DNA of 64,000 bases from Streptomyces sp. NBC_01754. Its GTDB lineage: Bacteria > Actinomycetota > Actinomycetes > Streptomycetales > Streptomycetaceae. The notes under the pieces were generated by a model. That model did no database searches. It had not been told where the DNA came from and saw nothing but the letters and a program-made list of their open reading frames with translations. A program made the translations under genes and the position numbers. Where the stretch lies: contig NZ_CP109132.1 in the NCBI RefSeq assembly GCF_035918015.1, positions 3,720,001 through 3,784,000 on the forward strand. Reading direction: 5' to 3'. Shown here in pieces: positions 1,017 through 19,897 of this stretch. Each line of letters begins with the position of its first letter. Position 1 is the first letter of the stretch.

Positions 1017-1044
1017 GCCCTGCGCCACCGCACTCCAGACTCCA

Positions 1045-1081
1045 GGCCCCTGGTCCGGTTCACACCGGACGGGGGCCCTTT
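1045..1081. terminator. Bidirectional terminator between DUF6344 and MocR1
   Basis: GGCCCC..GTCCGG (from 1045) pairs with CCGGAC..GGGGCC around a TTCACA loop and is followed by a short T-run at 1079-1081. It overlaps the stop codon of the convergent MocR1 gene (1060-1062), so it can serve both genes. It also marks the left breakpoint of the accessory block. Confidence 0.65.
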
Positions 1082-2553
1082 CGCGTGCCCGCCAGGTCGC
1101 GGTAGGCGGCGCCGAGGGCATCGAGGCTGCGGGCCAGGGCGGCGCAGTTCACCGCGGCGTAGCTGACCACCAGGGCCGGCGGCCTCGTGGTGTCCGTCAG
1201 CACGTAGAAGCGGCCGCCGCGCACCAGCACCGAGCGGTGGCGGGCGGCCCGTACCAGCGCGTGTTCGTCGACGTGGGCGGGGAGTTCGAGGTACGCCTGA
1301 AGGCCGCTGTCCCGCCCCAGGAGCCGGGCTCCGGGCAGGCAGCTCGCGACTTGGCGGCGGACGACCCCGCGCCGCTTGTGGAATTCGGCGCGCATCTTGC
1401 GCTGGTGCCGGTCCAGGCCGCCCGTGTCGATGAACCGGGCCAGGGAGAGCTGCTCGATGCCCGAGCAGCCGAGGTCCCAGCCGGCCCGTACGTGCTCCAC
1501 CGAGGACATCAGCTCCGAGGGCGCGGCCAGCCAGCCCAGCCGCAGGGCGGGGGCGAGGATCTTGCTGGCGCTGCCCGCGTAGACGACCCGGTCGGGGGCC
1601 AGGCTCTGGAGGGCGGGCTGCCGGTCGGAGCGGTGCAGGAAGGCTCCGTCGAAGTCGTCCTCCAGTACGTAGCCGTCCACCGAGCGGGCCCAGGCGATGA
1701 GCCGCTCGCGGCGCTCCTGGCTGAGCCGGGAGCCGGTCGGGAAGTGGTTGCCCGGAGTCATCAGCACGGCGCGTACGCCGCTGCGCTCCAGGAGGTCCAC
1801 GCGCAGCCCGTCCTCGTCGACCGGTATGCCGACCGGGCGCAGACCCGAGCTGGTGATGAACTCGCGCTCGCCCGGGTGGCCGGGGTCCTCCACCCCCAGG
1901 GACCGGTGGCCCCGGTCGATGAGCACCTTGCAGATCAGGGCCAGCCCCTGGGCGAACCCCGCGGTGAGCATCAGGTCCTCGGGCCTGGTCCGTACGCCAC
2001 GGACCCGGCCGAGGTAGCCGGTCAGCACGTGCCGGGCCAGGGGTACGCCGGCGGGCGGGGCGTAGCTGAACTCCTGGCGTCCGGCGTCCTGGATCACGGC
2101 GGTGACACAGCGGATCCAGTCCTGCCGGGGGAAGGCCGCGATGTCCGACGTACCGGTGCGCAGGTCCCACATCGCCTCGGCTGACTCGCGGTCGTGGGAG
2201 ACGAGCGTGGGGGCCACCCGGGAGCTGGGCGGCTCCGAGACGGTGGTTCCCGAACCGCGCTTCGTCAGCAAGTACCCCTCGGCCACCAGCCGTTCGTACG
2301 CCTCGACCACGACGCTCCTCGACACCCCGAGGTCCAGGGCCAGTTGGCGGGTGGAGGGGATGCGGGTGCCGGGCCGCAGGGAGCCGTTCTCGACCGAACG
2401 GTGCAGGAAATTGCGTACCTGTACGGCCAGCGGCAGAGGCGATTCGCGATCAACGGTGAGGGGGAGTTGCCACGACAAGTGGTCTTCTCTCTGACGGTCG
2501 AAGTGGTATGGCCAGGCATTCTGGCATCTGATGAAGTCGTCTCGCACACACAT
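1060..2553 (-). CDS. MocR-family transcriptional regulator 1 (GntR-type HTH fused to aminotransferase-like domain)
   Basis: A 497-residue protein. A GntR winged-helix domain comes first (about residues 38-105, ending in LTKRGSG), then a fold-type-I aminotransferase-like domain (about 130-485). The PLP-binding lysine is present at K331 in SASKILAPALRLGW. MocR proteins bind PLP or a PLP-amino acid adduct as effector and usually control adjacent or divergent genes. The gene is divergent from the TrpE-like gene with a 183-bp gap that contains the inverted repeat TGGTC-N5-GACCA. A start near 2480 is also possible because the first 25 residues are poorly conserved in character. Likely a cluster-situated activator or repressor; its effector is unknown. 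Confidence 0.88.
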   Translation of the reverse strand: MCVRDDFIRCQNAWPYHFDRQREDHLSWQLPLTVDRESPLPLAVQVRNFLHRSVENGSLRPGTRIPSTRQLALDLGVSRSVVVEAYERLVAEGYLLTKRGSGTTVSEPPSSRVAPTLVSHDRESAEAMWDLRTGTSDIAAFPRQDWIRCVTAVIQDAGRQEFSYAPPAGVPLARHVLTGYLGRVRGVRTRPEDLMLTAGFAQGLALICKVLIDRGHRSLGVEDPGHPGEREFITSSGLRPVGIPVDEDGLRVDLLERSGVRAVLMTPGNHFPTGSRLSQERRERLIAWARSVDGYVLEDDFDGAFLHRSDRQPALQSLAPDRVVYAGSASKILAPALRLGWLAAPSELMSSVEHVRAGWDLGCSGIEQLSLARFIDTGGLDRHQRKMRAEFHKRRGVVRRQVASCLPGARLLGRDSGLQAYLELPAHVDEHALVRAARHRSVLVRGGRFYVLTDTTRPPALVVSYAAVNCAALARSLDALGAAYRDLAGTRKGPRPV

Positions 2554-2683
2554 TCGCCACCCCGGGGGGAACTGGGGCGGCCAAGGGGGATGCGGGGGGA
2601 AGGACCCGGCGAGAAGCCGGTCATGCGTGACGTGCGGCGGCAGACCGATGGCCTGCGGGTGTTCGTGCTGCCCTCAAAGCCCT

Positions 2684-2729
2684 TGGTCTCTTGGACCAGA
2701 AAGATTTTCGCTGTGTCTTTACTGTCAGA
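2684..2729 (+). promoter_or_regulatory. Candidate operator and promoter of operon A (TrpE-like operon)
   Basis: TGGTC (2684-2688) and GACCA (2694-2698) form a perfect inverted repeat with a 5-base spacer. TACTGT (2720-2725), inside the string TACTGTCAGA, lies 21 bp further on and could be a -10. The same string occurs before the second operon at a matching distance. No good -35 is spaced 17-18 bp from it, which suits an activator-dependent promoter. The inverted repeat lies in the divergent gap with MocR1. Confidence 0.5.
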
Positions 2730-2736
2730 ACTGACC

Positions 2737-4284
2737 GTGCCGGGCGTGACAGGTCCGGGACCACTGAGCGCGGACGGCGCTCCGGCGGGGGGCGTACGCG
2801 TCCGGGTGCTCTCCACCGAACTGCCGCCCACCGACCCGCTCCAGCTGTACGAAGCCCTGACCCACGCCCGGGAACACGACGACGTCTACCTCTTCGAGAG
2901 CCTGGACGGGCCGGCCCAGGACCGGCACTACGCGGCGGTCGGCTACGGCCGCCTCGCGGAGCTGCGGGTCTTCGCCGGCCGGGTGGAGCTCACGGCCGGC
3001 GGTGAGCTGGGCGCGGCGCTGGCCGCGTCCCTCTCGTCGGCCGCCGGGGAAGCGGCCGGTGAGCACGGGGGCGTACGCCGGTGGTCGACGGATGACTCCG
3101 CGACCGTGTGGCGCATGCTGCGGGCCGTGCAGAGCGCGTTCGTAGTGGACACCGATGTGCCCACCGACACCTTCGCCTTCGGCTTCCTCACCACGCTCTC
3201 CTACGAGGCCGCCTGGCTCATGGAGGAACTCCCCGAGCAGCGCGCGGACGTCGAGCTGCCGCGCTGCACGCTCACCCTCTTCCGGGACACGGTCTGGTAC
3301 GGCCTGCGGGACGGCGGGGTCCGCCATCTCTCCGCGCACGGCGACCTGTTCCCCGCGGAGAACGGGCCGCCCCTGTGGGAGGTCCTGGACACCATGAAGG
3401 AGCGGGGGACGCGGGACGGCGCCCCGGTGGTGCCGGCGGCGCCCGCGCCCCGGTCCGTGCGGGACACCGTGGACCGGGAGACGTTCATCGCCCGCGCCGA
3501 GCGCTGTCTCGGACACATCGGGGTGGGCGACAGCTACCAGATCCAGATCGGCCACCGGATCGACGTCAAGACCGAGTTGACCCCGCTCCAGGTCTACCAG
3601 CGGCTGCGGCACCGCAATCCGTCGCCCTACATGTACCTGGTGCCGTGGGCCGGCCGTACGGTGATCGGGGCCAGCCCCGAGCTGTTCGTACGGATCCAGG
3701 ACGGGCACATCTCCATGCGGCCCATCGCGGGCACCGCACCACGGGCCGCCGATCCGGCCGAGGACGCCCGGCTGGTGGCCGGGCTGCGGGAGAGCGCCAA
3801 GGAGCAGGCCGAGCACGTGATGCTCGTCGACCTGTGCCGCAACGACATCGGGCGGGTCTGCGTGCCCGGCACGCTGAGCGTCGACACGATGATGGAGGCC
3901 GAACCCTTCGCCTACGTCCACCACCTGGTCTCGACCGTGTCGGGCCGGGTCAGGGACGGCACGGACGTCTGGGCGTCGATCTGCGCGACCTTCCCGGCCG
4001 GCACCATGACCGGGGCCCCGAAGCTGCGCGCCATGGAGATCATCAGTGAGATCGAGGACCAGCCCCGGGGGATCTACGCCGGAGCGCTGGGCCTGGTCGA
4101 CGTACGCGGCTTCTCGGTGCTCGCGCTCTGCATCCGCACCACCGTCCACGACGGGCAGCGGTACAGCACCCAGGCGTCGGCCGGTGTGGTGGCCGACTCC
4201 GTGCCCGCCGACGAGTGGCGCGAGACGCTGGCCAAGATGAGCGCCACCTACTGGGCGCTGACCGGCGAGGAGCTGCTGACATGA
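2737..4284 (+). CDS. Anthranilate/ADIC synthase component I-like enzyme (TrpE family)
   Basis: About 515 residues. It has the chorismate-binding domain with PIAGT in RPIAGTAPR, EHVMLVDLCRND, a VHH in place of the usual VMH, and FPAGTMTGAPKLRAMEIISE. PIAGT, rather than the PIKGT of aminodeoxychorismate (PABA) synthases, points to amination at C2 of chorismate, giving anthranilate or 2-amino-2-deoxyisochorismate. The usual AGAGIV glycine block reads ASAGVV, and the GTRPRG after PIAGT is altered to GTAPRA, so the outcome may differ from TrpE. The next gene (glutaminase) overlaps by 4 bases. The start is uncertain: GTG 2713, 2737 and 2746 are all in frame with no strong ribosome site. A start at 2713 would include a rare TTA as third codon. 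2737 is chosen because it lies just after the suspected transcription start. Confidence 0.85.
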   Translation: MPGVTGPGPLSADGAPAGGVRVRVLSTELPPTDPLQLYEALTHAREHDDVYLFESLDGPAQDRHYAAVGYGRLAELRVFAGRVELTAGGELGAALAASLSSAAGEAAGEHGGVRRWSTDDSATVWRMLRAVQSAFVVDTDVPTDTFAFGFLTTLSYEAAWLMEELPEQRADVELPRCTLTLFRDTVWYGLRDGGVRHLSAHGDLFPAENGPPLWEVLDTMKERGTRDGAPVVPAAPAPRSVRDTVDRETFIARAERCLGHIGVGDSYQIQIGHRIDVKTELTPLQVYQRLRHRNPSPYMYLVPWAGRTVIGASPELFVRIQDGHISMRPIAGTAPRAADPAEDARLVAGLRESAKEQAEHVMLVDLCRNDIGRVCVPGTLSVDTMMEAEPFAYVHHLVSTVSGRVRDGTDVWASICATFPAGTMTGAPKLRAMEIISEIEDQPRGIYAGALGLVDVRGFSVLALCIRTTVHDGQRYSTQASAGVVADSVPADEWRETLAKMSATYWALTGEELLT

Positions 4285-4880
4285 GGGTCCTGCTCGTCGA
4301 CGCGTACGACAGTTTCAGCCACATCATCGACCAGTACCTGCTCACGCTGGGGGCGCGGACCGAGGTGGTGCGTTCGCGCACCCGCACGGTGGCGGAGCTG
4401 GTGGAGTCGGCGCCCGACGCCGTGGTGCTGGGCCCCGGCCCCGGGCATCCGGCCGTCTCGGGCCACGTCGAGCTGGTGCACGCCTTCGCCGGGCGGGTGC
4501 CGGTGCTCGGCGTCTGCCTCGGCCACCAGGCGATCGGCCTCGCCTACGGGGGGCGGGTCGGCGTCGCCGAGCACCTGATGCACGGCAAGACCAGCCCGGT
4601 CGAGCACGACGGCGACGGGGTGTTCGCGGGCGCCGTGACTCCGCTGACCGTCACCCGCTACCACTCGCTGATCGTCACCGATCCGCCGCCGGAGCTCGCG
4701 GTCACGGCGACCTCGCTCGACGACGGCTATGTGATGGGAGTGCGGCACCGGACGCTCGCCGTCGAAGGGGTGCAGTTCCACCCGGAGAGCGTGACGACCG
4801 ACGACGGGCTGCGGCTCTTCGGCAACTTCCTGGCACAGGTGGGGGACGTGCCGCTGGCGGCCGGGGCGCCCGCCCGCTGA
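4281..4880 (+). CDS. Glutamine amidotransferase component II (TrpG/PabA family)
   Basis: A 199-residue class-I glutamine amidotransferase. The catalytic nucleophile is C79 in GVCLGHQA, and the His/Glu pair is H167 and E169 in FHPES. The oxyanion block GPGPGHP is at 51-57. It hydrolyses glutamine and passes ammonia to the TrpE-like partner, with which it overlaps by ATGA, so the two are translationally coupled. Length and motifs are complete. It is probably dedicated to the cluster rather than to housekeeping tryptophan or folate synthesis, which should have their own copies elsewhere. Confidence 0.92.
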   Translation: MRVLLVDAYDSFSHIIDQYLLTLGARTEVVRSRTRTVAELVESAPDAVVLGPGPGHPAVSGHVELVHAFAGRVPVLGVCLGHQAIGLAYGGRVGVAEHLMHGKTSPVEHDGDGVFAGAVTPLTVTRYHSLIVTDPPPELAVTATSLDDGYVMGVRHRTLAVEGVQFHPESVTTDDGLRLFGNFLAQVGDVPLAAGAPAR

Positions 4881-4946
4881 CCGGGCGGGGGGAACGGGAA
4901 CGACGGCGGGGCAGGTGACCGCAGGAAAGCGATCCGGGGGAATCGG

Positions 4947-5657
4947 ATGAACGACGCAACAAGCCCGCTGGCCGTGGTGACCGGCGCCGCGGGAGGCATC
5001 GGCCGGGCCGTGACCGCGGCACTGGCCGGGGCGGGACACCGGGTCCTGGCCGTCGACGTCAAGGACGACGCCGACCCGGCCGCACACGCCGTGCTCACCG
5101 CCGACCTCGGCGTACCGGCCGCCGCCGAAGAGCTCTTCCGGCTGATCGAGGAGCGGTACGGGCTGCCCTCGGTCCTGGTCAACAACGCCGGGATCTACGA
5201 GGCCAGGGACTTCCTGGACTACGACGCGGAGAGCTACCGCCGGGTCTTCGACATCAACGCGGGCGCGGCCTTCTTCTGCACCCAGACGCTGGCCCGCCGG
5301 CTGATCGCCGCCGGGCGGCCGGGCAGCGTGGTCAACGTGGCCTCCATCAGCGGACAGACCGGAAGCCCCGACGCGGCGTACGGAGCCTCCAAGGGCGCCG
5401 TGATCGCGCTGACCCGGAGCCTGGGGCGGGCGCTGGCACCGCACCGCATCCGGGTCAACGCCGTGGCCCCGGGGCTGATCGACACCCCGATGGCCGGGCG
5501 GGTCCCCGCCGACCGCGCGGCCGACTACCGCCGGAGCATCCCGCAGCGGCGGTTCGGCGAGGCCGCCGAGGTCGCGTCGGCGGTGTGCTACCTCGCGGGT
5601 CCCGGCGCCGGCTATGTCACCGCGGCCGTCCTGGACGTCAACGGCGGCCTGCACTGA
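4947..5657 (+). CDS. Short-chain dehydrogenase/reductase
   Basis: A 236-residue classical SDR. It has TGAAGGIG (residues 12-19) for NAD(P) binding, NNAG, the catalytic Ser in VASIS, YGASK with the catalytic Tyr and Lys, and a C-terminal substrate loop ending VNGGLH. Size and motifs fit enzymes such as DhbA (2,3-dihydro-2,3-dihydroxybenzoate dehydrogenase) or the bacilysin enzymes BacC and BacG. The sequence alone does not choose between oxidation of a dihydroaromatic alcohol and reduction of a keto or enone group. It follows the amidotransferase by 66 bp with a GGGGGAA site before the ATG. In context it probably acts on a cyclohexadienyl or cyclohexenol intermediate. Confidence 0.9.
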   Translation: MNDATSPLAVVTGAAGGIGRAVTAALAGAGHRVLAVDVKDDADPAAHAVLTADLGVPAAAEELFRLIEERYGLPSVLVNNAGIYEARDFLDYDAESYRRVFDINAGAAFFCTQTLARRLIAAGRPGSVVNVASISGQTGSPDAAYGASKGAVIALTRSLGRALAPHRIRVNAVAPGLIDTPMAGRVPADRAADYRRSIPQRRFGEAAEVASAVCYLAGPGAGYVTAAVLDVNGGLH

Positions 5658-5790
5658 CGCGGGCGGCCACCCGGCACCCTCTTCCGCCTCCATCCGCACA
5701 CTCCTCGCCACCGCCCGCGCACGGCGGCAGCGCGCCGCCCGGCCTGCGCGCCTCACGCGTACCACCTCACTCCGAAAGGACCCACCGCCC

Positions 5791-7212
5791 ATGTGGCTGC
5801 CCACGCACGGCCCCGCGGCCGACTTCGCCGCGCGGTACCTCGACCTCCACCAGGCGTTCTACGACCGCACGCTGACCGACCGGGCCCTCGACGACTGGCG
5901 CACCCGCCAACTCCGTACCGTGCTCGACCAGGTCAGCACCGGATCGCCCTTCTACGCACGGCACCTGAAGGGCGTCGACCTGGACGCGGTCACCCCGGAC
6001 GACCTGACGGCGCTGCCCTTCACCACCAAGGCCCGGCTGCGCGAGGAGATGCTCGACGTCCTCAGCCGGCCGCTGGCCGACGCGCTCTTCTTCTACGAGA
6101 CCACCGGCACCACCGGGGCCGCCACCCCGTGCCCCCGCGACGGCCGGGAGATCGTCGCCAGCAACGCCCACATCACCGAGTCCTGGGCCTCGATCTTCCG
6201 CCACCACTTCGGTGACCACGCCCCGCGCATCGGGCTGATGGGCCCCACCGAGGTGCACTCGTTCGGCGACACGCTCGGTGACATCGCCCGTAACGTCGGC
6301 TCGCTCAACGCCAAGATCTGGCCCTACTCCCCGGTCATCGGCTTCCAGAAGGCGCTCCAGCTGATGAAGGAACTGGAGCTGGAGGTGATCTGCTGCACCC
6401 CCGGCGTCGCGCTCACCCTCGCCAAGGCCGCCGAGCACTACGGCTACGACCTGCGGAGCGACTTCTCCGTCAAGCTGCTGCTGACCACCGGCGAGATGTG
6501 CACCCCGGCGCTGGCGCACAATCTGGAGACGGTCTGGGGCGCGGACGTCTACAACATCCTGTACGGGTCGCAGGAGGCGTTCGTGGTCGCGACCGCCTGC
6601 CGCAACAAGCGGATGCACCTGTCGCAGACCAACTACCTCATCGAGGTGGTGGACCCCGAGACCGGCGAGTCCGGCGGACCGCGCGGCAACGGCGAGCTGA
6701 CCGTGACCATGCTGATCGACGGGGTGAAGCCGCTGATCCGCTACCGCACGGGCGACGTCGTCGCGATCGAGGCGTCGGACTGCGGCTGCGAGATGCCGGG
6801 CGATCTCGTACGGATCGTCGGCCGCACCCTGGACCGGCTCGAACTCGGCGGGCGGAAGTTCACCGCGGGCCAGGTCGAGACGGCCGTCATGACCGGGGTC
6901 ACGGGCTCCGCCGGATACCAGGTGGTGATCGAGCGGGACGACGCCGGACAGGACCGGCTGACCGTCCGCCTCGAACTGCTCAAGGGGCTCGTCGAGGACG
7001 CGGAGGCGCTGGCCGACTCCGTACGGAACGGGGCCGCCGCGGCCCTCGGGGTGCCCGTCACCGTGGAGCTCAGCGACGGACTCGACTCCATCGTGAGCAC
7101 CGGGGCCTTCGTCAGCTGGAAGGCCGCCCGCATCGTCGACCGGCGCACCACCCCCGACCACGAGACCGAAGTGGCCCAGAAGATGGCGAAGAACCGTGGC
7201 TATGAGCGCTGA
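5791..7212 (+). CDS. PaaK-like acyl/aryl-CoA ligase (AMP-forming)
   Basis: A 473-residue member of the ANL superfamily, nearest in character to phenylacetate-CoA ligase. ETTGTTG (E103-G109) is the ATP phosphate loop, YGSQEA the acid-recognition and adenine region, and YRTGD (Y318-D322) the nucleotide ribose motif. The start at 5791 follows GAAAGGA by 10 bases; longer in-frame starts run through non-coding-looking sequence. It would adenylate a carboxylic acid and may transfer it to CoA or directly to an amine. No carrier protein is visible in the cluster, so a free CoA ester or acyl-AMP is likely. Anthranilate or another cluster acid is a plausible substrate. The BacA-like gene overlaps its end by 11 bases. 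Confidence 0.88.
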   Translation: MWLPTHGPAADFAARYLDLHQAFYDRTLTDRALDDWRTRQLRTVLDQVSTGSPFYARHLKGVDLDAVTPDDLTALPFTTKARLREEMLDVLSRPLADALFFYETTGTTGAATPCPRDGREIVASNAHITESWASIFRHHFGDHAPRIGLMGPTEVHSFGDTLGDIARNVGSLNAKIWPYSPVIGFQKALQLMKELELEVICCTPGVALTLAKAAEHYGYDLRSDFSVKLLLTTGEMCTPALAHNLETVWGADVYNILYGSQEAFVVATACRNKRMHLSQTNYLIEVVDPETGESGGPRGNGELTVTMLIDGVKPLIRYRTGDVVAIEASDCGCEMPGDLVRIVGRTLDRLELGGRKFTAGQVETAVMTGVTGSAGYQVVIERDDAGQDRLTVRLELLKGLVEDAEALADSVRNGAAAALGVPVTVELSDGLDSIVSTGAFVSWKAARIVDRRTTPDHETEVAQKMAKNRGYER

Positions 7213-7861
7213 CGTCGCGGCCCTGCCGGGGCCGCTCACCGAGGAGTACACCGCGCGCTGGAGCGAGCTGACCGGCCGCTGGGCCGCACAGCCCGGCACC
7301 ACCCTGGGCACACTGGGGCCGGACGGTACCTCCAGCCAGCTGGCGGCCCGCTTCCTCGCCCAGCAGCACGGGCTGTCCGTCGAGCTGTTCGTCACCTTCG
7401 ACGAGGTGCTGGAGCGGCTCGTCGACCGGAAGATCGACTACGCGCTGGTGCCCAGCGCCTACCAGGGGCTGACCCGCTTCCACTGGCACCGGGACCTGCG
7501 GCTCCAGGCGTTCTTCCCGCAGGCCACCCCGGAGTACGGGATCGCGGGCCGGGCGGGCACGGCGGCGGACCTGGGGCCGCACGGGACGCCGGTCACGGTC
7601 GCGGCCATGTGGGAGGTCCGCCGGATCTACGCCGAAGTGGTGCCCGCCGCACTGAGCGACCGCGAGGTGCGCTGGGTGGAGGCGGTCTCCACGCAGCACG
7701 CCGCCGAGATCGTGGCCCGGGGCGGGGCCGAACTGGCGGTCACCAACGCCCCCGGGATCCACGCCCACGGTCTGCGCTGGGTGGCCGTCCGGCCGGGCGC
7801 GGAGATCCTCTGGACGCTTTTCGGCCCCGCCGCACCGGCCCGTACGGGCGTTCCGGCCTGA
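7202..7861 (+). CDS. BacA-like prephenate decarboxylase homologue (prephenate dehydratase fold)
   Basis: A 219-residue protein with a single prephenate-dehydratase-type periplasmic-binding fold and no ACT domain. Key blocks are TLGPDGTSS, TFDEVLERL, YALVPSAYQG and the stretch around RDLRLQAFF followed by TPEYGIAG. These resemble, from memory, BacA of bacilysin biosynthesis (TLGPEGTSS, VPHAYDG, PDLQLLQIF, TPMYGLA) more than PheA. BacA decarboxylates prephenate without aromatisation, giving a dihydro-4-hydroxyphenylpyruvate. A chorismate mutase encoded in the second operon could supply prephenate. A GTG at 7196 is an alternative start. A TRF triplet at about residue 81 is not in the position of the dehydratase TRF motif. 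Non-aromatising decarboxylation is inferred. Confidence 0.75.
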   Translation: MSADVAALPGPLTEEYTARWSELTGRWAAQPGTTLGTLGPDGTSSQLAARFLAQQHGLSVELFVTFDEVLERLVDRKIDYALVPSAYQGLTRFHWHRDLRLQAFFPQATPEYGIAGRAGTAADLGPHGTPVTVAAMWEVRRIYAEVVPAALSDREVRWVEAVSTQHAAEIVARGGAELAVTNAPGIHAHGLRWVAVRPGAEILWTLFGPAAPARTGVPA

Positions 7862-7938
7862 GCGTCCGTGCCGGACGGCCGGTCCAACCGGCCCGGCCGC
7901 CCGGTCCAACCACCCTTACGACACTGGAGATCGCCGAC

Positions 7939-9228
7939 GTGCCACGCAGAACCCTGCTCCACCGCGCCACGGTCCAGGAGGGCCTGGGCCGCGCCTCCCT
8001 TCCGCGCCACAGCGTGCTGCTGAACGGTGACCGCGTCGAGGCGGTCCTGCCCGATGACCTGGCCCCGCTGCACGCCCCCGATGTCGACGTCCTCGACCTG
8101 GACGGCCGCACCGTCATGCCCGGCATGACGCTCGGCCACACCCACATCGCCTACCTCGACATCCTCGACGGGCGGGAGATGCTCTTCAAGTACTCCGTCC
8201 CCGAGGTGACGCTCGCCGCCGCCGAGAACACCGCCAACCTCCTCGCCCTCGGCTACACCGGCTTCGTCGGCGCCGGCTCGGTCGCCGGGATCGACATGGC
8301 CCTGCGCCGTGCCGTCGACTCCGGGCGGCTGCGCGGCCCCCGGATCACCCCGTGCAGCCGGGACCTGATGGTGTCCGGGCCGCCCGAGCGCCGTAACCCG
8401 GAGGTCAAGAAGCGCATCCCGACGGACCTGATGCGCCTGGCGGACACCCCCGAGGAGATGGCCGAGTACGTCATCGGGGAGATCGAGCAGGGCGCGGAGA
8501 TCGTCAAGGTCTTCTCCTCCGGCGACGACACCTTCCCCAACGGCCGCTCCCACGAACTGCTGTTCACCGCCGAGGAGCTGGTCATCGCCACCCGTACGGC
8601 GCACGAGCACGGCGCCCGGGTGCGGGCCCACTCGCGCGGGCTCGGGGGCATCCGCAACGCACTCGCCGCCGGGGTCGACGTCATCGACCACGCCACCTAC
8701 GCCGACGACGCGGCGCTGGAGACCATCGCCGAGCGGGACGTCTTCGTCGTCCCGAGCCTCTACCAGCCGCACATGCTGCTCACCACCGGCACCGAGCACG
8801 GCAAGACCCCCGAGTACCTGGAGACGCTGGAGTTCGAGGCCGAGGTCGCGAACACCCTGCGGATCCTGCCGCTCATGGTCGAGATGGGCATCCCGGTGGT
8901 GGCCGGGGACGACTTCGGCTTCGCCTGGACCCCGCACGGTACGTACGCCAAGGAGCTGGAGCTCTACGTCACCCTGGCGGGCATCCCCGCCCCGACCGTG
9001 CTGACCTGGGCGACGGCCAACGGCGCACGGCTCGCGGGGCGCGGGGACGACGCCGGGACCGTACAGCAGGGACGCCTGGCCGACCTGGTCGTGACGGACG
9101 GGGACCCGGCCGAGGACATCACGGTGCTCAGCCGCCCCGGGGCGATCGAGCTGGTCCTGCTCGGCGGCGAGGCCGTCGCCGGCACCACCGAGCGCTACCG
9201 CGCCCCGGTCACGGCAGGAGCCTCCTGA
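7939..9228 (+). CDS. Metal-dependent amidohydrolase (imidazolonepropionase/prolidase-like)
   Basis: A 429-residue amidohydrolase-superfamily enzyme with the complete metal set: H67 and H69 in GHTH, K190 in EIVKVF (probable carboxylated bridging lysine), H231 in RAHSRG, H251 in DHATYA and D324 in AGDDFG. This layout fits a binuclear or mononuclear hydrolase acting on amides, lactams or cyclic imines. GTG 7939 has GGAG ten bases upstream; longer frames run back through the preceding gene. The stop overlaps the start of the MFS gene by one base. It may hydrolyse or form a ring amide, or release an amide-protected product; the substrate cannot be read from sequence. Confidence 0.88.
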   Translation: MPRRTLLHRATVQEGLGRASLPRHSVLLNGDRVEAVLPDDLAPLHAPDVDVLDLDGRTVMPGMTLGHTHIAYLDILDGREMLFKYSVPEVTLAAAENTANLLALGYTGFVGAGSVAGIDMALRRAVDSGRLRGPRITPCSRDLMVSGPPERRNPEVKKRIPTDLMRLADTPEEMAEYVIGEIEQGAEIVKVFSSGDDTFPNGRSHELLFTAEELVIATRTAHEHGARVRAHSRGLGGIRNALAAGVDVIDHATYADDAALETIAERDVFVVPSLYQPHMLLTTGTEHGKTPEYLETLEFEAEVANTLRILPLMVEMGIPVVAGDDFGFAWTPHGTYAKELELYVTLAGIPAPTVLTWATANGARLAGRGDDAGTVQQGRLADLVVTDGDPAEDITVLSRPGAIELVLLGGEAVAGTTERYRAPVTAGAS

Positions 9229-10463: not shown

Positions 10464-10506
10464 AGCGGCCGGCGAGCGGGGCCGAAGGGGGGCGGCCGGG
10501 TGGGCA

Positions 10507-10530: not shown

Positions 10531-10540
10531 CGGTCCGCAA

Positions 10541-10604: not shown

Positions 10605-10676
10605 CACGCCATCAGTGGCCCCGGAACGAGGACCACGGACCCGGACCACCGACCACGGACACAAAGGACCCCCTCC

Positions 10677-11447: not shown

Positions 11448-11483
11448 GCCCTCCCGCCACTCGACCCGTACGAGGAGACCCGC

Positions 11484-12707: not shown

Positions 12708-12780
12708 GCGGCCGGCGTGCGACGGGACAGCACGTTACGGAACCCCGCGTGACCAGCCGTCGCAGGAAGGAGGCCATGCC

Positions 12781-14019
12781 ATGTGGCTGACCCGGTTCAA
12801 AGAGCTGCCGCTCGCGCTGCGGGTGCTCTTCCTCGCGTCGTTCGTCAACCGCGCGGGCATGTTCGTCTTCCCGCTGCTCGCCGTGTACCTGGTGCGCGGC
12901 GAGGGGCTCAACCCCGGCGAGGCGGGCCTGCTCATCTCCATCGGCAGCACCGGCCTGCTGGTCGGCAGCCTGCTCAGCGGGCCGCTCTGCGACCTGCGCG
13001 GCCGGCGCACCGCGCTGCTGACGGCGCTGCTGCTGAACGCGGCGGGCTATCTGGGCCTCGCCGTCTTCGACGGCCCGCCGTGGACGTACGCGGGGCTGCT
13101 GTTCATCGCCCTGGTCGGCATGGGCATGTTCAGCCCGGCCTCCAACACCCTGGTCGCCGACCTGACCACCCCCGAGCAGCGCCCCTTCGCCTACACGATC
13201 AGCTACGTCGGCAACAACCTGGGAATGGGCGTCGGCCCGCTCCTCGGCGGCGTCGCGGCGGCCTACTCGTACCACGTCATGTTCGCGGGGAACATCCTCG
13301 CCGGGCTGGTATGTGCCGCGATGATCCTGATCTGGGTGCCGCGCGACCTCCCCACCCGCACGGCGGAGCACAAGGACAAGGCCCGCACGGGCTCGCTCGG
13401 CCACGGCCATGTGCTGCTGATCGTCCTGGTCTCCTTCTTCTACGTCGCTCCGCTGATCGGCCTGGAGTACGCGCTGCCGCTGGCCGTCACCACGGTGCTG
13501 GAGCAGTCGGCCGGCCTGGTCGGCGCCGTCTACACCATCAACAGCGTCGTCGTGGTCAGCCTCGGCCTGCTCCTGGAGAAGCACATCCGGGCGTACGGCA
13601 CCAAGCTGCTGCTCCTGATCGCCGGCGCGCTGTGGGCGCTGGGCCTCGCCGTGATCGCCTTCGCCTTCTCGCTGCCCGCCATCCTGCTCTCCACGGTGGT
13701 GTGGACACTCGGCGAGATCATCGCGTCCGTCGTCGTACCGACCTACATCGCCGACCACGTCGACAAGCGCCGTGTCGGCAGCTTCATGGCGCTCAACGGC
13801 TTCGTTCTCGGGCTGGCCCGCCTCGTCGTCCCCGTCGGCCTGGGCGTCATCTGGACGGCCCACGGCCACGAGCCCGTCTTCCTGACCCTGCTCGCCGCCC
13901 CGGTGGCCGGGATGGCCGTCTTCGCGCTGCTGCGCGTCAGGCGGGCGCCCACCTCCGCCGTACCGGACCCGTCGGCCGCCCCCGTCGCGGCGGCCGATGC
14001 CGCACCACAGGCCAACTGA
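12781..14019 (+). CDS. MFS transporter 2
   Basis: A 412-residue, 12-helix MFS protein. The loop 2-3 signature reads [14 protein letters not shown], close to the DHA1 consensus GxLADRxGRR. ATG 12781 has an AGGAAGGAGG site eight bases upstream. It has low similarity in character to MFS 1, so the cluster has two separate exporters, perhaps one per product or for product and intermediate. Bacilysin clusters carry one such exporter (BacE). It lies between the ATP-grasp and TrpB-like genes in operon B. Confidence 0.88.
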
Positions 14020-14092
14020 CCGTCCACAGGCATGTTCACCGTGCCGGAACACACCGGGAAACACCGCACCACTCCAAGAACAGAGAGCGCAC

Positions 14093-15397
14093 ATGTCTCA
14101 GACCAAGTTCCTGCTGCCCGAGAACCGCACCCCCACCACCTGGTACAACGTGGTGGCGGACCTGCCCAAGCCGCTGGAGCCGATGCTGCACCCCGGCACC
14201 CGTGAGCCGCTCACCACGGCGGACCTGGAGCCGTTGTTCCCGCCGGAGCTGATAGCCCAGGAGTTCACCACGGCACCGACCGTGGACATCCCGGGCGCCG
14301 TGCTCGACGTGTACAAGCAGTGGCGGCCGAGCCCGCTGGTCCGCGCCCGCCGGCTGGAGCGGGCGCTGGACACCCCGGCCCGCATCTACTTCAAGAACGA
14401 GGGCGTCAGCCCGGCCGGCAGTCACAAGCCCAACACGGCGATCCCGCAGGCGTACTACAACAAGCAGGCCGGTGTGGAGCGGCTCACCACCGAGACCGGC
14501 GCCGGCCAGTGGGGCAGCTCCCTCGCACTCGCCTGTTCGTACTTCGGCCTCGTCTGCGAGGTCTACATGGTCAAGGTGAGCTATCAGCAGAAGCCCTACC
14601 GCCGCGGCCTGATGGAGACCTTCGGCGCGAGCGTCACCGCCAGCCCCAGCGAGCTGACCGCCGTCGGCCGGGCCGCGCTCGCCGCCGACCCCGACTCACC
14701 GGGCAGCCTGGGCCTGGCCATCTCCGAGGCGGTGGAGGCGGCGGTGGGCAGCGGCGGCACCGCCAAGTACGCGCTCGGCTCGGTGCTCAACCTGGTCCTG
14801 CTGCACCAGACGATCATCGGCCAGGAGGCCCAGCTCCAGATGGAGCTGGCCGAGGACCACCCGGACATCGTGATCGGCGCGGCCGGCGGCGGCTCCAACT
14901 TCGGAGGCCTCGCCCTGCCCTTCCTCGGCGAGCAGCTCCGCGGCGGGCGCGGCGTCCGGGCCGTCGCGGTGGAGCCCGCGTCCTGCCCGACGCTGACCGA
15001 GGGCAAGTTCGACTACGACTTCGGAGACACCGCGGGCCTGACCCCGCTCACCAAGATGCACACCCTCGGCCACGACTTCGTGCCGCCGAGCATCCACGCG
15101 GGCGGACTGCGCTACCACGGCATGTCGCCGATCATCAGCGCGCTCAAGGAGCTCGACCTCCTGGAGGCCCGCGCCGTCCCGCAGACCGCCTGCTTCGAGG
15201 CCGGCGTGACCTTCGCCCGCCACGAGGGCATCGTGCCGGCTCCGGAGTCGACGCACGCGGTGCGCGCCGCGATCGACGAGGCGCTGGCCTGCAAGGAGTC
15301 CGGCGAGTCGAAGAGCATCCTGTTCTCGCTCTCCGGCCACGGCCACTTCGACATGCAGGCGTACATCGACTACTTCGCCGGCAAGCTCAAGGACTGA
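14093..15397 (+). CDS. TrpB2-like PLP enzyme (tryptophan synthase beta homologue, no TrpA partner)
   Basis: A 434-residue fold-type-II PLP enzyme of the TrpB2 branch. It has GSHKPN with the PLP lysine (TrpB2 usually GSHKIN), ETGAGQWG carrying the catalytic Glu, and the phosphate loop GGGSNFGG. No TrpA gene lies near, so it should work on a free nucleophile or on another PLP reaction such as serine dehydration or beta-replacement. The Ile-to-Pro change beside the PLP lysine is unusual. It could attach an amino-acrylate unit to an arylamine or ring carbon made by the cluster. A start at ATG 14093 follows AGAGAG; longer in-frame frames extend into the MFS gene. Confidence 0.85.
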
Positions 15398-15466
15398 CCA
15401 GTACGGGGGGGCAGGGGCGGGCCGAGGGGGGCCGCCCCTGAACATCGCTGACTTTGGGGGAAGTTC

Positions 15467-16150
15467 ATGCAGTACATGACGCAGGACATACAGGGAGAGC
15501 GGCCGGTCGTCCTCGGCATATCCGGGTCGGAGAGAGCCGGCGGCAACACGGATCTCGCCCTGGAGTACGCGGGCAGGCTGGTGCGGGAGCGGGGTGCCGT
15601 GTTCCGCACGGTGTACCTGCGCGACCACCGCATCTCGCCGTGCAGCCCGTGCGGCGACTGCAACGCACGGACGCTTCCGTGCGCGCTGAAGGACGACACG
15701 CCCGCCATCGTCGAGGAGATGAAGCGGGCCGACGGCATCATCTACGCCGTCCCCGTGCACGGCTTCGGCCTGGCGCACCTGATGCAGATCTTCATCGAGC
15801 GGGCGGGCGTGGGCTTCCTGCGCTTCGACCGGCCGCTCGCCAACAAGGTGGGCGGGATCATCGTCACCGGCCGGCGCTACAGCGACTCCTCGGTGCACAA
15901 CCAGATCGTCGACAATCTGCTGCTCAACCGCATGATCCTGGTGGGCAGCGGTTTCCCCGCCCTGCTGCGCAACACCTCCAAGGAACCGGGCCTGAACGAC
16001 ATCGAAGGTCTGGACGCCCTGGAGCGGATGACGCACCGGATGATCGACATGACGCAACTGCTGCGCAGGCACCAGGCGGCGACCGGGGAGCCGGTGCTGC
16101 TGCCGGACGACCGCAACGAGCGGGTGGCACGGGCCCATTCGACGTCCTGA
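15467..16150 (+). CDS. NAD(P)H-dependent FMN reductase, iron-sulfur flavoprotein-like
   Basis: A 227-residue flavodoxin-like protein. SGSERAGGNTD (19-29) is the FMN phosphate loop. A compact cysteine set C59-X2-C62-X2-C65-X6-C72 matches the CX2CX2CX4-7C pattern of archaeal/bacterial iron-sulfur flavoproteins (Isf), so a [4Fe-4S] cluster beside FMN is likely. It may reduce a ring, a nitro or N-oxy group, or supply electrons or reduced flavin. GGGGGAAG precedes ATG 15467. Two genes before the UbiD-type decarboxylase; no UbiX is present. Confidence 0.82.
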   Translation: MQYMTQDIQGERPVVLGISGSERAGGNTDLALEYAGRLVRERGAVFRTVYLRDHRISPCSPCGDCNARTLPCALKDDTPAIVEEMKRADGIIYAVPVHGFGLAHLMQIFIERAGVGFLRFDRPLANKVGGIIVTGRRYSDSSVHNQIVDNLLLNRMILVGSGFPALLRNTSKEPGLNDIEGLDALERMTHRMIDMTQLLRRHQAATGEPVLLPDDRNERVARAHSTS

Positions 16151-16198
16151 CACCCGCCGGCCTTTCACTCACACAACCGTCCAGGGAGAGTTCTGACC

Positions 16199-16543
16199 AT
16201 GACCACCACCGCCCCGGCCCTCGTAGGGATCGACTTCGACTCCATGCCCTGGGAGAAGTGGAACAAGCCCGGCGCCGACGGCCGGGTGAAGATCGCCTAC
16301 ACCGGCGGTCTGCGCGTACGCCTGATGGAGCTGCCCGCGGGCTTCAACGAGGAGGAGTGGTGTGAGCGCGGACACCAGGGCTATGTGCTCCAGGGCGAGT
16401 TCACCATCCACTTCGACAACCGGTCGGTGCCCTGCCGCCCCGGGATGGGCTTCATCATCCCCGGCGACGAACGGCACCGCTCGCAGGGCTCCGACGACGA
16501 GCCCACCGTCGTGTACGTCATCGACCAGGTCCCCCCGGCGTGA
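16199..16543 (+). CDS. Small single-domain cupin
   Basis: A 114-residue cupin. ERGHQGYVLQGEFTIHF supplies motif 1 and GMGFIIPGDERHR motif 2, with His/Glu residues able to bind a metal. GGGAGAG precedes ATG 16199. The bicupin BacB, which isomerises the BacA product in bacilysin synthesis, is about twice this length, so a related isomerase role would need a dimer. An oxygenase or a binding role is equally open. The end overlaps the chorismate mutase start (GTGA). Confidence 0.8.
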   Translation: MTTTAPALVGIDFDSMPWEKWNKPGADGRVKIAYTGGLRVRLMELPAGFNEEEWCERGHQGYVLQGEFTIHFDNRSVPCRPGMGFIIPGDERHRSQGSDDEPTVVYVIDQVPPA

Positions 16544-16923
16544 GTGCGGCGACCGGAACGGCCAGGGCCGACGGCGGCCCGGCGCGCATCGACAAGCTGC
16601 GCGGCTCCATCGACCTACTGGACCGGAAGATCGTCGCGCTCCTGGCCGAGCGGACCCGTGTCGTCCTCGAGCTCACCCAGCACAAGCGCGACGAGGAGGC
16701 GGTGCGCTCGCCCGACCGGGTGGAGCAGGTGGTCAGCAGGGTACGGGACATCGCCGGCGAGGAGGGGATGGAGCCGGTCATCGTGGAGGCCACCTACCGC
16801 ACGCTGATCGCGGAGCTGACCGACCTCCAGCTGCGGCTGCTCACCGAACGCCGGGCGGCCGCGGCGAGGGGCTCGGCCGGAGGCCGAGCGGGCCCGACGA
16901 GCCCGGCGGAGGGCGCGGGATGA
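16540..16923 (+). CDS. AroQ-type chorismate mutase (or aminodeoxychorismate-mutase-like)
   Basis: A 127-residue all-helical mutase starting at GTG 16540. The active-site set of the AroQ family is visible by comparison with E. coli EcCM: Arg in KLRGSID, Arg in AERTR, Lys in QHKRDE, Arg-Glu in DRVEQV and Gln in DLQLRLL. The N-terminus carries about 14 extra residues. It converts chorismate to prephenate; close relatives (PapB/CmlD) act on 4-amino-4-deoxychorismate. Because the cluster's TrpE-like enzyme has PIAGT rather than PIKGT, chorismate itself is the simpler substrate. The GTGA and ATGA overlaps on both sides show tight coupling. Confidence 0.88.
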   Translation: MSAATGTARADGGPARIDKLRGSIDLLDRKIVALLAERTRVVLELTQHKRDEEAVRSPDRVEQVVSRVRDIAGEEGMEPVIVEATYRTLIAELTDLQLRLLTERRAAAARGSAGGRAGPTSPAEGAG

Positions 16924-18359
16924 CCCGTCGCCGCCTGGCCGACCTGCGCACCGCGCTGGCCGGCCTCGATCTGATGCCCGGCGAGCTGGTACGCGTACAG
17001 GAGGAGGTGCCGGCCCGGTTCGGGGTCTCCTCCCACTACGCGAAGTGGGCCGGCACCCCGGCCCCGCCGCCGACCGGTCCCGGGCCGGCGGTCCTCTTCG
17101 AGCGGGTCGCACCCGAATCCGCCGACGCCGAGGCGCGGGCCGTGCTCATGGGGCTCTACGGCACCCGCCGCAGGGCCGCGGCCCTGCTGGGCACCACCCC
17201 GGCGGAGCTGCCCCGGCGGCTGCTGGACGCCGTCGCGGCGCCCCTGCCGCCGGTACCCGCCCGGGAGGGCAGGGCCCCGGCCCGGGGCACCCTCGCCCCG
17301 GACCTGACCGCGCTGCCGGTGCCGGTGCTCACCGCCGAGGACGCGGGGCCGTACCTCACGCTCGGGGCGGTCCTGGCGACCGACCCGGAGACCGGCGTAC
17401 GGAACCTGTCCATCCACCGGATGTGCGTCCAGGGCCCGGACCTGCTGTCCATCTGGATGGTGCCGGGCCGGGACCTGGAGGCCGCGTACCGCTCGGCCCA
17501 GCGCGCGGGCCGCCCGCTGCCCGTGGCGATCCATCTGGGGCTCGGGCCCGCGGTGCTGCTCTCCTCCTGCTGCCCGACCTCGCTCGTCCCGCCGGGGCTC
17601 GACGAGCTCGCGGTGGCGGGGGCGCTGGGCGGGGCGCCGGTGGAGCTGCTGCCGTGTACGACGGTGGACGCGGAGTACATCGCCGACGCCGAGTACGTAC
17701 TGGAGGGGCAGCTGCTGCCCGACCTGGCGCCGGAGAACCCGCACGGCCCCGCGGCCACCCCGGAGTTCCTCGGCTACCAGGGCCGGGCGCACCCCTCGCT
17801 GCCGACGGTCCGGATCACCGGGATCACCGCACGGGACGGAGCGATCCTCCAGGCCGTGTCGGGGCCCGGCCACGAGCAGTCGGTGCTGCTCGGCTTCGGC
17901 ATGGAGGCCGCGGTGCTGGCCCGGCTGCGGGAGCTGGACGCCCCGGTGGCCTCGGTGCTCTGCCACACGGCGGGGGGCGGCCAGCTGATGGTGGTGCTCC
18001 AGTGGGCGTTCAAGCGCACGGCCGACGACGACGAAGCGGTGCGCAAGGCGTCGGCGTCGGTGCTGGAGGAGTTCCGGATGGCCAAGCTGGTCGTCTCGGT
18101 CGACGAGGACGTGGACCTGGAGTCCGACGAGGACCTGTGGTGGGCGATGACCACCCGGATGCAGGCCGACCGCGATGTGCTGGTGCTGCCGGACCGGGAG
18201 GGGTTCCCGCTCGACCCGACGCAGTCCACCGCGTACTCGCCGGCCCTCTCGGCCGACGGCCGCACCGCCAAGGCGGTCTTCGACTGCACGGTCCCCTACG
18301 CCCAGCAAGGCCGCTTCCACCGGCCCCGCTTCACCCCGCCTTCCCCGGACGGGACCTGA
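16920..18359 (+). CDS. UbiD-family prenyl-FMN-dependent decarboxylase
   Basis: A 479-residue UbiD family protein. R167 in NLSIHRM and the acid-rich block AEYVLEG...PENPHG (about 257-272) match the Arg-Glu-Glu catalytic region that surrounds prFMN in UbiD/Fdc1. It overlaps the mutase by ATGA and is the last gene of operon B; its end overlaps the convergent MocR2 gene by 29 bp. UbiD enzymes need prenylated FMN from UbiX, which must come from elsewhere in the genome. A likely reaction is decarboxylation or carboxylation of an aromatic or alpha,beta-unsaturated acid made in the cluster. Confidence 0.87.
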   Translation: MTRRRLADLRTALAGLDLMPGELVRVQEEVPARFGVSSHYAKWAGTPAPPPTGPGPAVLFERVAPESADAEARAVLMGLYGTRRRAAALLGTTPAELPRRLLDAVAAPLPPVPAREGRAPARGTLAPDLTALPVPVLTAEDAGPYLTLGAVLATDPETGVRNLSIHRMCVQGPDLLSIWMVPGRDLEAAYRSAQRAGRPLPVAIHLGLGPAVLLSSCCPTSLVPPGLDELAVAGALGGAPVELLPCTTVDAEYIADAEYVLEGQLLPDLAPENPHGPAATPEFLGYQGRAHPSLPTVRITGITARDGAILQAVSGPGHEQSVLLGFGMEAAVLARLRELDAPVASVLCHTAGGGQLMVVLQWAFKRTADDDEAVRKASASVLEEFRMAKLVVSVDEDVDLESDEDLWWAMTTRMQADRDVLVLPDREGFPLDPTQSTAYSPALSADGRTAKAVFDCTVPYAQQGRFHRPRFTPPSPDGT

Positions 18360-19887
18360 CCTCCCGTACGACGTCGGCGAGGAGCGCCACGCCCTCGGTG
18401 ATACGGGCGGTGGTCAGGGCCGCGTACCCCATCAGAAAGGTCGGCTCGGCCGGCAGCTCCTGGACGAAGTAGCCGGACGCGGGATATATCCGCACCCCGC
18501 GTCCGGCCGCCAGGCGGGCGATCTCGCCCTCCCCCGCGCCACGGGTCCCGGTGAGGGTGACCAGGACGTGCAGCCCGGCCGCCTCGCCCGAGATCCGGAC
18601 CTCGGAGCCGAAGTGTTCCAGCAGCGCCTCGATCAGGCGGCTCCTGCGCTTGCGGTAGAGGCGGGTCATCCGGCTGATGTGGCGCAGATAGCCGCCGGTG
18701 GAGATGAAGTGGGCGAGCGCGTCCTGGCCGACCGTGGGCGTGAGCCGGTCGGTGATCCACTTGATGCCGAGGAACGGCTGCACGAGGTGCGGCGGGAGGA
18801 CGGCGTAACCGATCCGCAGGGCCGGGAAGAGCGTCTTGCTGAAGCTGCCCACGTACACGACGGTGTCCCGGTGCCGCGCGGCGGCCAGGGCGGGCAACCG
18901 CTCCGCGGTGAAGGTGAACTCGTTGTGGTAGTCGTCCTCCAGAACGGTCGCCCCGCTGCGGTGCGCCCACTCCAGCAGGGCCGTCCGTCGGCCCTCGGAC
19001 ATGATGAACCCGGTCGGGAACTGGTGCGAGGGGGTCACGTACACCAGCTTGACCCGGGCCGGATCGTGCCCGTGGGCCCGTACGCGGGCGTCGATGTCCC
19101 CGACCCGCAGCCCCTGCTCGTCCACCGGCACCGGCACCACGGCGGCCCGGGAGCAGCCGAAGATCTGCCGCAGCACGGTGTGGCTGGGGTCCTCGATGAC
19201 CACCACGTCCCCGGGCCCCACCAGCAGCCGTACGAGGATATCCATGGCCTGGGTGGCCCCGCCGGTCACCATGATGCGGTCGGCGGAGGCATCCAGGGCC
19301 CGGCTCTGCCGCACCAGCGTGGCGATCTCGGTGCGCAGCGCGGGCGCCCCCTCGGCCGGCCCGTACCCGAGCGCGGCGGCGTCCGCCCGCCCGTACGCCT
19401 CCTGCAACGACTGGAGCCAGCGCGTCACGGGGAAGTCGGCGAGCGCGGGCGTCCCGTGCCGGAAGTCGATTCCGGCGCCCGGGTGGTGCGCGGGCGCCGG
19501 CTCCCAGGGCTGCCACAGCGCGTCCCCGTCCGCCGTGGACCGGGGCGGCTGCGGCGCGAGTGCGGCGGGCACCACCGGCCGCCCCGGGGCCGCCGCACCG
19601 CCCGTCACCCCGGCGGTCCCGGCCACCCGCGTACCGGAGCCGCGCCGCGCGGTCAGGATGGCGTTGGCCCGCAGCAGTTCGTAGGCCCGCATGACGACGG
19701 TCCGGGAGACACCGAGCTGGAGGGCCAGTTCCCGCGAGGCGGGCACCACGTCCCCGGCCCGCAACTGCCCCGACCGCACCAGCAGCGTGACCTGATCGCA
19801 CACCTGCTGCTGCAAGGGCGTGGCGCTCTCCCGGTCCAGAGCGATGAGCAGCTCCGACGACCCCACCCCTGCCCCCTCACTGACCAC
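18331..19887 (-). CDS. MocR-family transcriptional regulator 2
   Basis: A 518-residue GntR-HTH plus aminotransferase-like protein. The winged helix lies at about residues 23-90 and the PLP lysine is K351 in SFSKTLFPAL. GTG 19866 (VGSSELLIALDRES) is an alternative start. Immediately upstream on the same strand are a terminator and tRNA-Ile, so little room is left for a promoter. Either it is expressed by read-through or its promoter overlaps the terminator. With MocR1 at the other end, it brackets the cluster. It may sense a PLP or amino-acid signal and control one of the two operons. Confidence 0.87.
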   Translation of the reverse strand: MVSEGAGVGSSELLIALDRESATPLQQQVCDQVTLLVRSGQLRAGDVVPASRELALQLGVSRTVVMRAYELLRANAILTARRGSGTRVAGTAGVTGGAAAPGRPVVPAALAPQPPRSTADGDALWQPWEPAPAHHPGAGIDFRHGTPALADFPVTRWLQSLQEAYGRADAAALGYGPAEGAPALRTEIATLVRQSRALDASADRIMVTGGATQAMDILVRLLVGPGDVVVIEDPSHTVLRQIFGCSRAAVVPVPVDEQGLRVGDIDARVRAHGHDPARVKLVYVTPSHQFPTGFIMSEGRRTALLEWAHRSGATVLEDDYHNEFTFTAERLPALAAARHRDTVVYVGSFSKTLFPALRIGYAVLPPHLVQPFLGIKWITDRLTPTVGQDALAHFISTGGYLRHISRMTRLYRKRRSRLIEALLEHFGSEVRISGEAAGLHVLVTLTGTRGAGEGEIARLAAGRGVRIYPASGYFVQELPAEPTFLMGYAALTTARITEGVALLADVVREVRSRPGKAG

Positions 19888-19897
19888 CCGCAGACGA

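Follow-up and report, generated by a model that had tools for sequence, protein, structure and literature searches.

A group of 17 genes lies near one end of a 64,000-nucleotide stretch of the Streptomyces sp. NBC_01754 genome (NZ_CP109132.1:3720001-3784000, hereafter the window), close to the middle of a 7.74 Mb contig in a genome of 7.77 Mb. This island comprises a MocR regulator gene on the reverse strand (MocR1), fifteen co-directional genes on the forward strand and a second reverse-strand MocR gene (MocR2; Table 1). An uncharacterised biosynthetic cluster had been predicted here from the DNA letters alone. The cluster is present where it had been placed and the bracketing by two MocR genes holds, but the sixteen genes announced are 15 between the regulators or 17 with them, and two genes for major facilitator superfamily (MFS) proteins were absent from the enzyme list. 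Pfam and NCBIfam scans of the island proteins support the enzyme families originally named, the match of the BacA-like protein to prephenate dehydratase being weak, exactly at the cut-off (25.2 bits). As predicted, no polyketide synthase, non-ribosomal peptide synthetase (NRPS) or carrier domain was reported in these scans. The proposed placement between DUF6344 and tRNA-Ile is borne out on the tRNA side; on the other side the two left-end frames scanned gave no Pfam match and the DUF6344 name was not recovered.

Table 1 Features of the island and its surroundings (window positions)
Feature	Position	Strand	Basis or remark
MocR1 regulator (GntR + aminotransferase domains), divergent from TrpE	1060..2553	-	Pfam/NCBIfam; 17/17 named type A loci
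TrpE-like chorismate amination enzyme (Chorismate_bind), PIAGT motif, start uncertain	2590..4284	+	Pfam
TrpG-like glutamine amidotransferase (GATase)	4281..4880	+	Pfam; Cys + His motifs in 23/23 distinct rows
Short-chain dehydrogenase (SDR)	4947..5657	+	Pfam; missing from 6/17 type A loci
PaaK-family acyl-AMP ligase, XsbC-like	5791..7212	+	AMP-binding; X. szentirmaii match; tree
Prephenate-decarboxylase-fold (BacA-like) protein, altered motif	7202..7861	+	Overlaps PaaK by 11 bases
Metal-dependent amidohydrolase (AHase)	7939..9228	+	Pfam; GTG 7939 start likely, not proven
MFS exporter-like protein 1 (MFS1)	9228..10463	+	Best NCBIfam Cmx/CmrA, under its cut-off
Free-standing B3/4 protein, possible aminoacyl-tRNA deacylase	10677..11447	+	9f7e CtdA, E 2.3e-22
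ATP-grasp protein with L-amino-acid ligase C-terminal domain (LAL_C2)	11484..12707	+	PF18603 51.5 bits, cut-off 29.4
MFS exporter-like protein 2 (MFS2)	12781..14019	+	Library scan
TrpB2-like pyridoxal phosphate enzyme; GSHK + ETGAGQWG motifs kept	14093..15397	+	NF009057 707 bits, cut-off 366
FMN/[Fe-S] dehydrogenase-like protein (FMN_red; SgcG/XsbA kind, probable ADIC dehydrogenase)	15467..16150	+	Similarity to xsbA-place protein
Single-domain cupin	16199..16543	+	Pfam
AroQ-type chorismate mutase (CM)	16540..16923	+	PF01817 63.2 bits, cut-off 27
UbiD-family decarboxylase, Glu pair kept	16920..18359	+	Pfam/NCBIfam
MocR2 regulator, convergent with UbiD	18331..19887	-	Pfam/NCBIfam; beside cluster in 12/13 distinct genomes
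Accessory island (insertion/replacement)	1077..19885	.	G+C 0.726 vs 0.685 in right flank
tRNA-Ile(gat)	19937-20013		Adjoins right end of island
dnaN	28650-29780		
dnaN-dnaA gap, taken as oriC	29781-30652		Bracketed by dnaN + dnaA
dnaA	30653-32539		

Neighbouring genes overlap by 1-11 bases at five junctions (TrpE/TrpG, PaaK/BacA, AHase/MFS1, cupin/CM and CM/UbiD) and the widest intergenic gap, upstream of the B3/4 gene, is about 210 bases, which makes an operon-like unit likely. The original prediction had called for a search for the same gene set elsewhere. A profile of the BacA-like protein found 36 loci in named genomes, including 19 actinobacterial ones (L003-L021) with at least 43% identity. 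The whole set occurs in 14 of these 19 loci, where the genes for B3/4, ATP-grasp, MFS2, TrpB2, FMN, cupin, CM and UbiD proteins follow MFS1 in an unchanged order. Three others (L004, L013 and L020) agree with this order until the loci end inside the cluster, while L011 and L021 are variants. Together with the empty site found in a related genome, described below, these observations establish the island as a real unit: the gene set recurs far beyond chance. Type A, as we call this organisation, includes 17 loci, all with MocR1 and 11 with the SDR gene (4 of the 6 gaps were inspected). MocR2 adjoins the cluster in 12 of 13 distinct genomes; the remaining one (G785, whose contig differs from that of L013) is undecided, and L012 was left out.

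Counts of distinct rows, here and in Table 1, are those of a recount without duplicates (G131, G782 and the L008 genome are the same, L062 is the L011 locus and L092 continues L003). L006 drops out of several alignments through broken frames: in this S. altiplanensis draft the TrpE, MFS1, AHase and TrpB2 matches are in pieces, perhaps because of draft-assembly frameshifts. The MocR2 match crosses one TGA in each of three Micromonospora genomes (G785, G787 and G788), which an upstream start or a real disruption may explain. The genes of the relatives come from a crude gene picker and some of their starts are uncertain.

The island is rare. A close copy of the marker (BacA-like) gene exists in 5 of 392 Streptomyces genomes, this one and the L011 variant included, and any BacA-like match in 27 of 392; in a sample of 396 Actinomycetota genomes two have a BacA-like match and only the present genome is of the island type. 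Amidohydrolase relatives at E<=1e-70 were found in 6 of 295 genomes, all six of which also carry a type A or B BacA-like gene. Elsewhere in this genome lie further loci for chorismate-binding, UbiD and PheA proteins and a second one for B3/4. The view that these genes are dispersed housekeeping copies is thus refuted.

The empty site is seen in G005, which matched the tRNA-Ile/DUF3566 stretch best among 12 relatives. Window positions 181-1076 and 19886-20880 match L103 17584-18496 and 18794-19801, which are only about 300 bp apart; an 18.8-kb segment bounded by the stop of MocR1 and the start of MocR2 has therefore been inserted or has replaced a short stretch. The approximately 300 bp in question (L103 18496-18794) suggest that replacement may have occurred. 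G004 and G006 likewise lack the island at this site, and the distance from tRNA-Ala(tgc) to tRNA-Ile is 4-6 kb in G004, G005 and G006 and 25 kb here. On sequence grounds, the block is a real and rare biosynthetic island that was horizontally acquired or is moving. The adjoining tRNA might designate a tRNA-targeted integrative element as the inserter. This is unsupported: a search of 124 kb for further exact copies of 12-mers drawn from the 40 bases at the tRNA 3' end was negative, leaving no direct repeat at a far border, and the Pfam scan gave no integrase family among the 17 genes. The predicted distance of about 10 kb from oriC is correct if the dnaN-dnaA gap is taken as the origin, MocR2 being 9.9 kb and UbiD 11.4 kb from it. 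No GyrA or DUF3566 match was obtained in the fetched flanks of the cluster-bearing relatives (up to about 19 kb past MocR2, mostly 3-5 kb on the MocR1 side), for which reason the proximity to oriC looks like an insertion particular to this strain.

Comparison of the variants delimits a core. Type B (L052 and L053) includes TrpE, TrpG, FMN, AHase, BacA, PaaK, B3/4, ATP-grasp and SDR genes, with no TrpB2, UbiD, CM or cupin match within the 20 kb fetched. Next to the cluster in L052 (80-4840) lie genes for a xylose-isomerase-like protein, an M20 peptidase, Ldh_2 and GFO/IDH/MocA. The L011/L062 variant (13781-20613) carries the genes from TrpE to FMN, B3/4, a TrpD-like phosphoribosyltransferase, a weak Trp-dioxygenase match and ATP-grasp, with a CM match (39%) about 12 kb downstream of BacA (L063 2561); L062-L063 gave no TrpB2, UbiD or cupin match. 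The Spirilliplanes variant (L021) has the core plus TrpB2, UbiD, CM and a LysE-type gene; B3/4, ATP-grasp and cupin gave no match there. Across type A, type B, L011 and L021, the shared core is TrpE, TrpG, FMN, PaaK, BacA and AHase. A third group is defined by BacA-like matches at E 1e-22 to 1e-29 in 15 of 392 Streptomyces genomes. None of its seven fetched loci has a TrpE or FMN match; a PaaK-like gene lies beside BacA in six (L051, L054, L055, L056, L064 and L065) and not in L057. L051 is a second BacA-PaaK locus of the present genome (6.21 Mb; G000:C1:6205000-6224900) with aconitase, HMGL and class IV aminotransferase genes, a set that looks like a chain-extension route. A DDE_3 transposase-like gene splits its HMGL-like gene (4641-6962), so this locus may be inactive.

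Three core proteins recall a published pathway. The benzoxazolinate cassette consists of a TrpE-like synthase of 2-amino-2-deoxyisochorismate (ADIC), an FMN/[Fe-S] dehydrogenase (SgcG, XsbA) and an acyl-AMP ligase of the phenylacetate-CoA-ligase family (XsbC), according to PMC10098953. Homologues of this cassette, identified by similarity, sit inside the island, which is new. In X. szentirmaii DSM 16338 (the L036 genome) the sole match of the FMN protein and the best match of PaaK (E 1e-82, the next being 2e-17) are about 2.7 kb apart. The layout there (L077: flavoprotein, 803-aa frame, PaaK-like protein, 353-aa and 453-aa frames) agrees with xsbABCDE as described in PMC10098953. The FMN protein matches the protein at the xsbA place at 44-45% and shares its PCxxCGDCN cysteine motif; a 63% homologue in Streptoalloteichus sp. 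ATCC 53650 bears the name ADIC dehydrogenase. The island protein is probably an ADIC dehydrogenase of the SgcG/XsbA family. PaaK is 33-36% to XsbC, and related PaaKs also occur without the cassette. A tree joins XsbC to the PaaKs of the cluster (100/100) and separates them from two other PaaKs, but XsbC is a long branch whose join is flagged as unsure.

TrpE carries PIAGT in 22/22 distinct cluster rows, while the paralogues of the same genome (L079 and L082) have PIKGT, whose lysine marks aminodeoxychorismate synthases. The motif thus predicts C2-amination, without separating an ADIC from an anthranilate product. This bears on a 4-amino route of the amiclenomycin or stravidin kind, in which TrpE/TrpG would be an aminodeoxychorismate synthase, CM would form aminodeoxyprephenate and the BacA-like protein would decarboxylate it. 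The enzyme classes are the same as those of the stravidin cluster, but PIAGT contradicts the first step, and neither an HMGL nor an aconitase family came out of the Pfam scan of the 17 genes, although stravidin-like clusters include genes for one-carbon chain extension. We consider this the least probable of the alternatives. The first steps can be placed with fair confidence, on the strength of these homologies, on the ADIC branch of chorismate metabolism. The cassette homology might even suggest that benzoxazolinate itself, decorated with amino acids, is the main product. However, xsbA, xpzC and xsbC alone are enough for benzoxazolinate in E. coli (PMC10098953), and BacA, AHase, UbiD and TrpB2 are conserved in the island type, so the acid is probably processed further; benzoxazolinate as an end product is decidedly unlikely.

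The BacA-like protein has a prephenate dehydratase fold (the structure search covered this protein only). Prephenate dehydratases are marked by a TRF motif and an ACT domain. All 23 BacA-like rows aligned show a gap where the PheA of the same genome (L087) has its TRF. The window-family proteins stop at 177-246 aa, and Pfam lists for them either the prephenate dehydratase domain alone or nothing, hence no ACT domain (other BacA-like rows were trimmed). Both points speak against a prephenate dehydratase; the fold without TRF is instead that expected of prephenate decarboxylases of the BacA, AerD and Plu3043 kind. However, the histidine of the HPAP region is replaced by Met, Leu or Val in 23/23 distinct type A and B proteins, with Glu at the Ala position, while the His of this HPAP/HPAA region is kept in 16/16 other BacA-like proteins aligned and in PheA. 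We infer that this His marks prephenate decarboxylase activity.

These residues weigh on a bacilysin-like route. CM would supply prephenate, the BacA-like protein would decarboxylate it without aromatisation, cupin and SDR would complete a dihydro- or tetrahydrotyrosine, the ATP-grasp protein would make a dipeptide, and TrpE, FMN and PaaK would provide a second building block. CM, BacA fold, cupin, SDR, ATP-grasp and MFS are indeed all in the island, the BacA-like protein has the appropriate fold, the same profile finds relatives in cyanobacteria and Xenorhabdus, and the recurrence of CM in L021 and some 12 kb downstream of BacA in the L011 variant indicates that CM probably matters. The replaced histidine speaks against it, as does the lack of any cupin match in L021 or L011/L062-L063 and of any CM match within the 20 kb fetched for each of L052 and L053. 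In addition, the cupin is a 114-aa protein with one cupin stretch whose five PDB matches are weak, none being named BacB. The route appears unlikely.

The later enzymes have intact motifs. The presumed metal ligands of AHase (HxH/K/H/H/D) are present in 22/22 distinct rows. UbiD keeps its Glu pair in 12/12 distinct rows and the Asn in 11/12, and TrpB2 keeps the motifs with Lys (GSHK) and Glu (ETGAGQWG) in 18/18. By analogy with TrpA followed by TrpB, UbiD may expose a ring carbon to which TrpB2 adds alanine. The LAL_C2 match, above its cut-off, predicts an L-amino-acid ligase. UbiD, a PaaK-like ligase, AHase, cupin, a flavoprotein, MFS uptake and MocR control might also be read as a catabolic island for an aromatic compound, such families being common in aromatic degradation. 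Yet TrpE/TrpG and CM draw on chorismate, the Pfam scan named no ring-cleaving dioxygenase family, the FMN protein and PaaK have their matches at xsb, a biosynthetic locus, and neither an amino-acid ligase nor a B3/4 protein would have an obvious use in degradation; a catabolic role is very improbable.

The B3/4 protein has two solved matches, the best being 9f7e (CtdA, a canavanyl-tRNA deacylase) and the other 9mkl. Outside the island the genome has a single B3/4 locus, an 849-aa frame presumed to be PheT. B3/4 genes are also found in type B and the L011 variant. It is possible that the island protein is an aminoacyl-tRNA deacylase providing immunity to the producer.

The reading we prefer, with a probability of about 0.45, is that the island branches off chorismate at C2-amination and leads to a non-protein amino acid and its dipeptide, tRNA editing serving as immunity. 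TrpE/TrpG would convert chorismate to ADIC, which the FMN/[Fe-S] dehydrogenase would oxidise to 3-O-enolpyruvoylanthranilate. The PaaK-family ligase would adenylate a carboxylate and, acting together with AHase and the BacA-fold protein encoded next to it, close or reshape a heterocycle. UbiD would take off the ring carboxylate, TrpB2 would couple the exposed ring to serine-derived alanine, and the resulting beta-heteroaryl-alanine would be capped as a dipeptide by the ATP-grasp ligase and exported by the two MFS proteins. The B3/4 protein would deacylate the producer's own mischarged tRNA and the two MocR proteins would regulate the island. All substrates, the late-step order, what CM, cupin and SDR do, and the product are presumptive. 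The reading is based on the order kept in 14/19 loci, PIAGT, the xsb matches, the PaaK tree, the similarity of B3/4 to CtdA, the recurrence of B3/4 genes in type B and the L011 variant, LAL_C2, the LysE-type gene of the Spirilliplanes variant and the heterocycle-forming ligase-amidohydrolase pairs of nataxazole and closoxazole.

Several points weigh against it. Neither CM nor a BacA-fold gene would be expected in an ADIC route, and the TrpE motif would equally fit a plain anthranilate synthase. The BacA-like gene pairs with PaaK in 6/7 other loci showing no TrpE or FMN match; this pairing and the unsure join of the long XsbC branch leave an XsbC-like function of PaaK uncertain. The best NCBIfam and PDB matches of AHase are peptidase-like, SDR is missing from 6/17 type A loci, and L021 does without B3/4, ATP-grasp and cupin matches and has Ala in place of the conserved Asn of UbiD.

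A more specific version, which we regard as doubtful, is a new antimetabolite pathway family: a cassette of the benzoxazolinate type, a prephenate-decarboxylase fold that has come to serve an ADIC-derived substrate, a UbiD-TrpB2 exchange of carboxylate for alanine yielding a Tyr- or Trp-like heteroaryl amino acid, dipeptide export, and clustered B3/4 trans-editing as self-resistance. Azatyrosine would be one bold sub-case, since the 63% homologue of the FMN protein comes from Streptoalloteichus sp. ATCC 53650, presumably the kedarcidin producer, and kedarcidin has an azatyrosine part. No Streptoalloteichus name occurs among 120 listed of 130 AHase relatives (scored were the 7997 candidates with most words in common) or among 62 BacA relatives, a weak negative as many rows are nameless. 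If the proposed pathway is right, the ADIC branch would extend to free amino acids or dipeptides without carrier-protein chemistry, a prephenate-decarboxylase fold would have a use outside prephenate chemistry, and tRNA editing would protect an antibiotic producer. Candidate producers exist in the 14 named Streptomyces and Micromonospora genomes with the whole set.

The original observation is confirmed and its interpretation supported. Searches of the licence-limited PMC literature found no characterised cluster matching the whole island; the claim that it matches no known cluster is true only of the whole set, since the benzoxazolinate cassette is a characterised sub-part with homologues here. 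Bacilysin shares with the island a BacA fold, cupin, SDR, ATP-grasp ligase and MFS protein; the island differs in its changed BacA motif, its single-domain cupin (BacB has two domains) and its additional TrpE, FMN, PaaK, UbiD and TrpB2. Stravidin and amiclenomycin (PMC13336041) would resemble the product, under the preferred reading, as chorismate-derived non-protein amino acids, but the island has a C2-type TrpE motif and no chain-extension genes. PaaK-like ligases paired with condensing amidohydrolases make the heterocycles of nataxazole and closoxazole (PMC12118335), and the island too encodes a PaaK-like ligase and a metal amidohydrolase close together. The likeness to NatAM and ClxD is one of gene pairing, and benzoxazole formation by PaaK and AHase is kept as an analogy only; the nearest PDB matches of AHase are peptidase-like. 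CtdA, which protects cells against canavanine (PMC10018355), is like the island protein a free-standing B3/4 protein with a WNWRQ motif; CtdA belongs to a canavanine-degrading context, whereas the island protein sits in a putative biosynthetic cluster. Finally, the xsb (Xenorhabdus szentirmaii) and sgc (C-1027) cassettes (PMC10098953) have in common with the island the TrpE-like enzyme, the FMN/[Fe-S] dehydrogenase and the PaaK-family acyl-AMP ligase. The 17-gene island, in contrast, has no NRPS or enediyne partner and adds a BacA-fold protein, an amidohydrolase, UbiD, TrpB2, an amino-acid ligase and a B3/4 protein.

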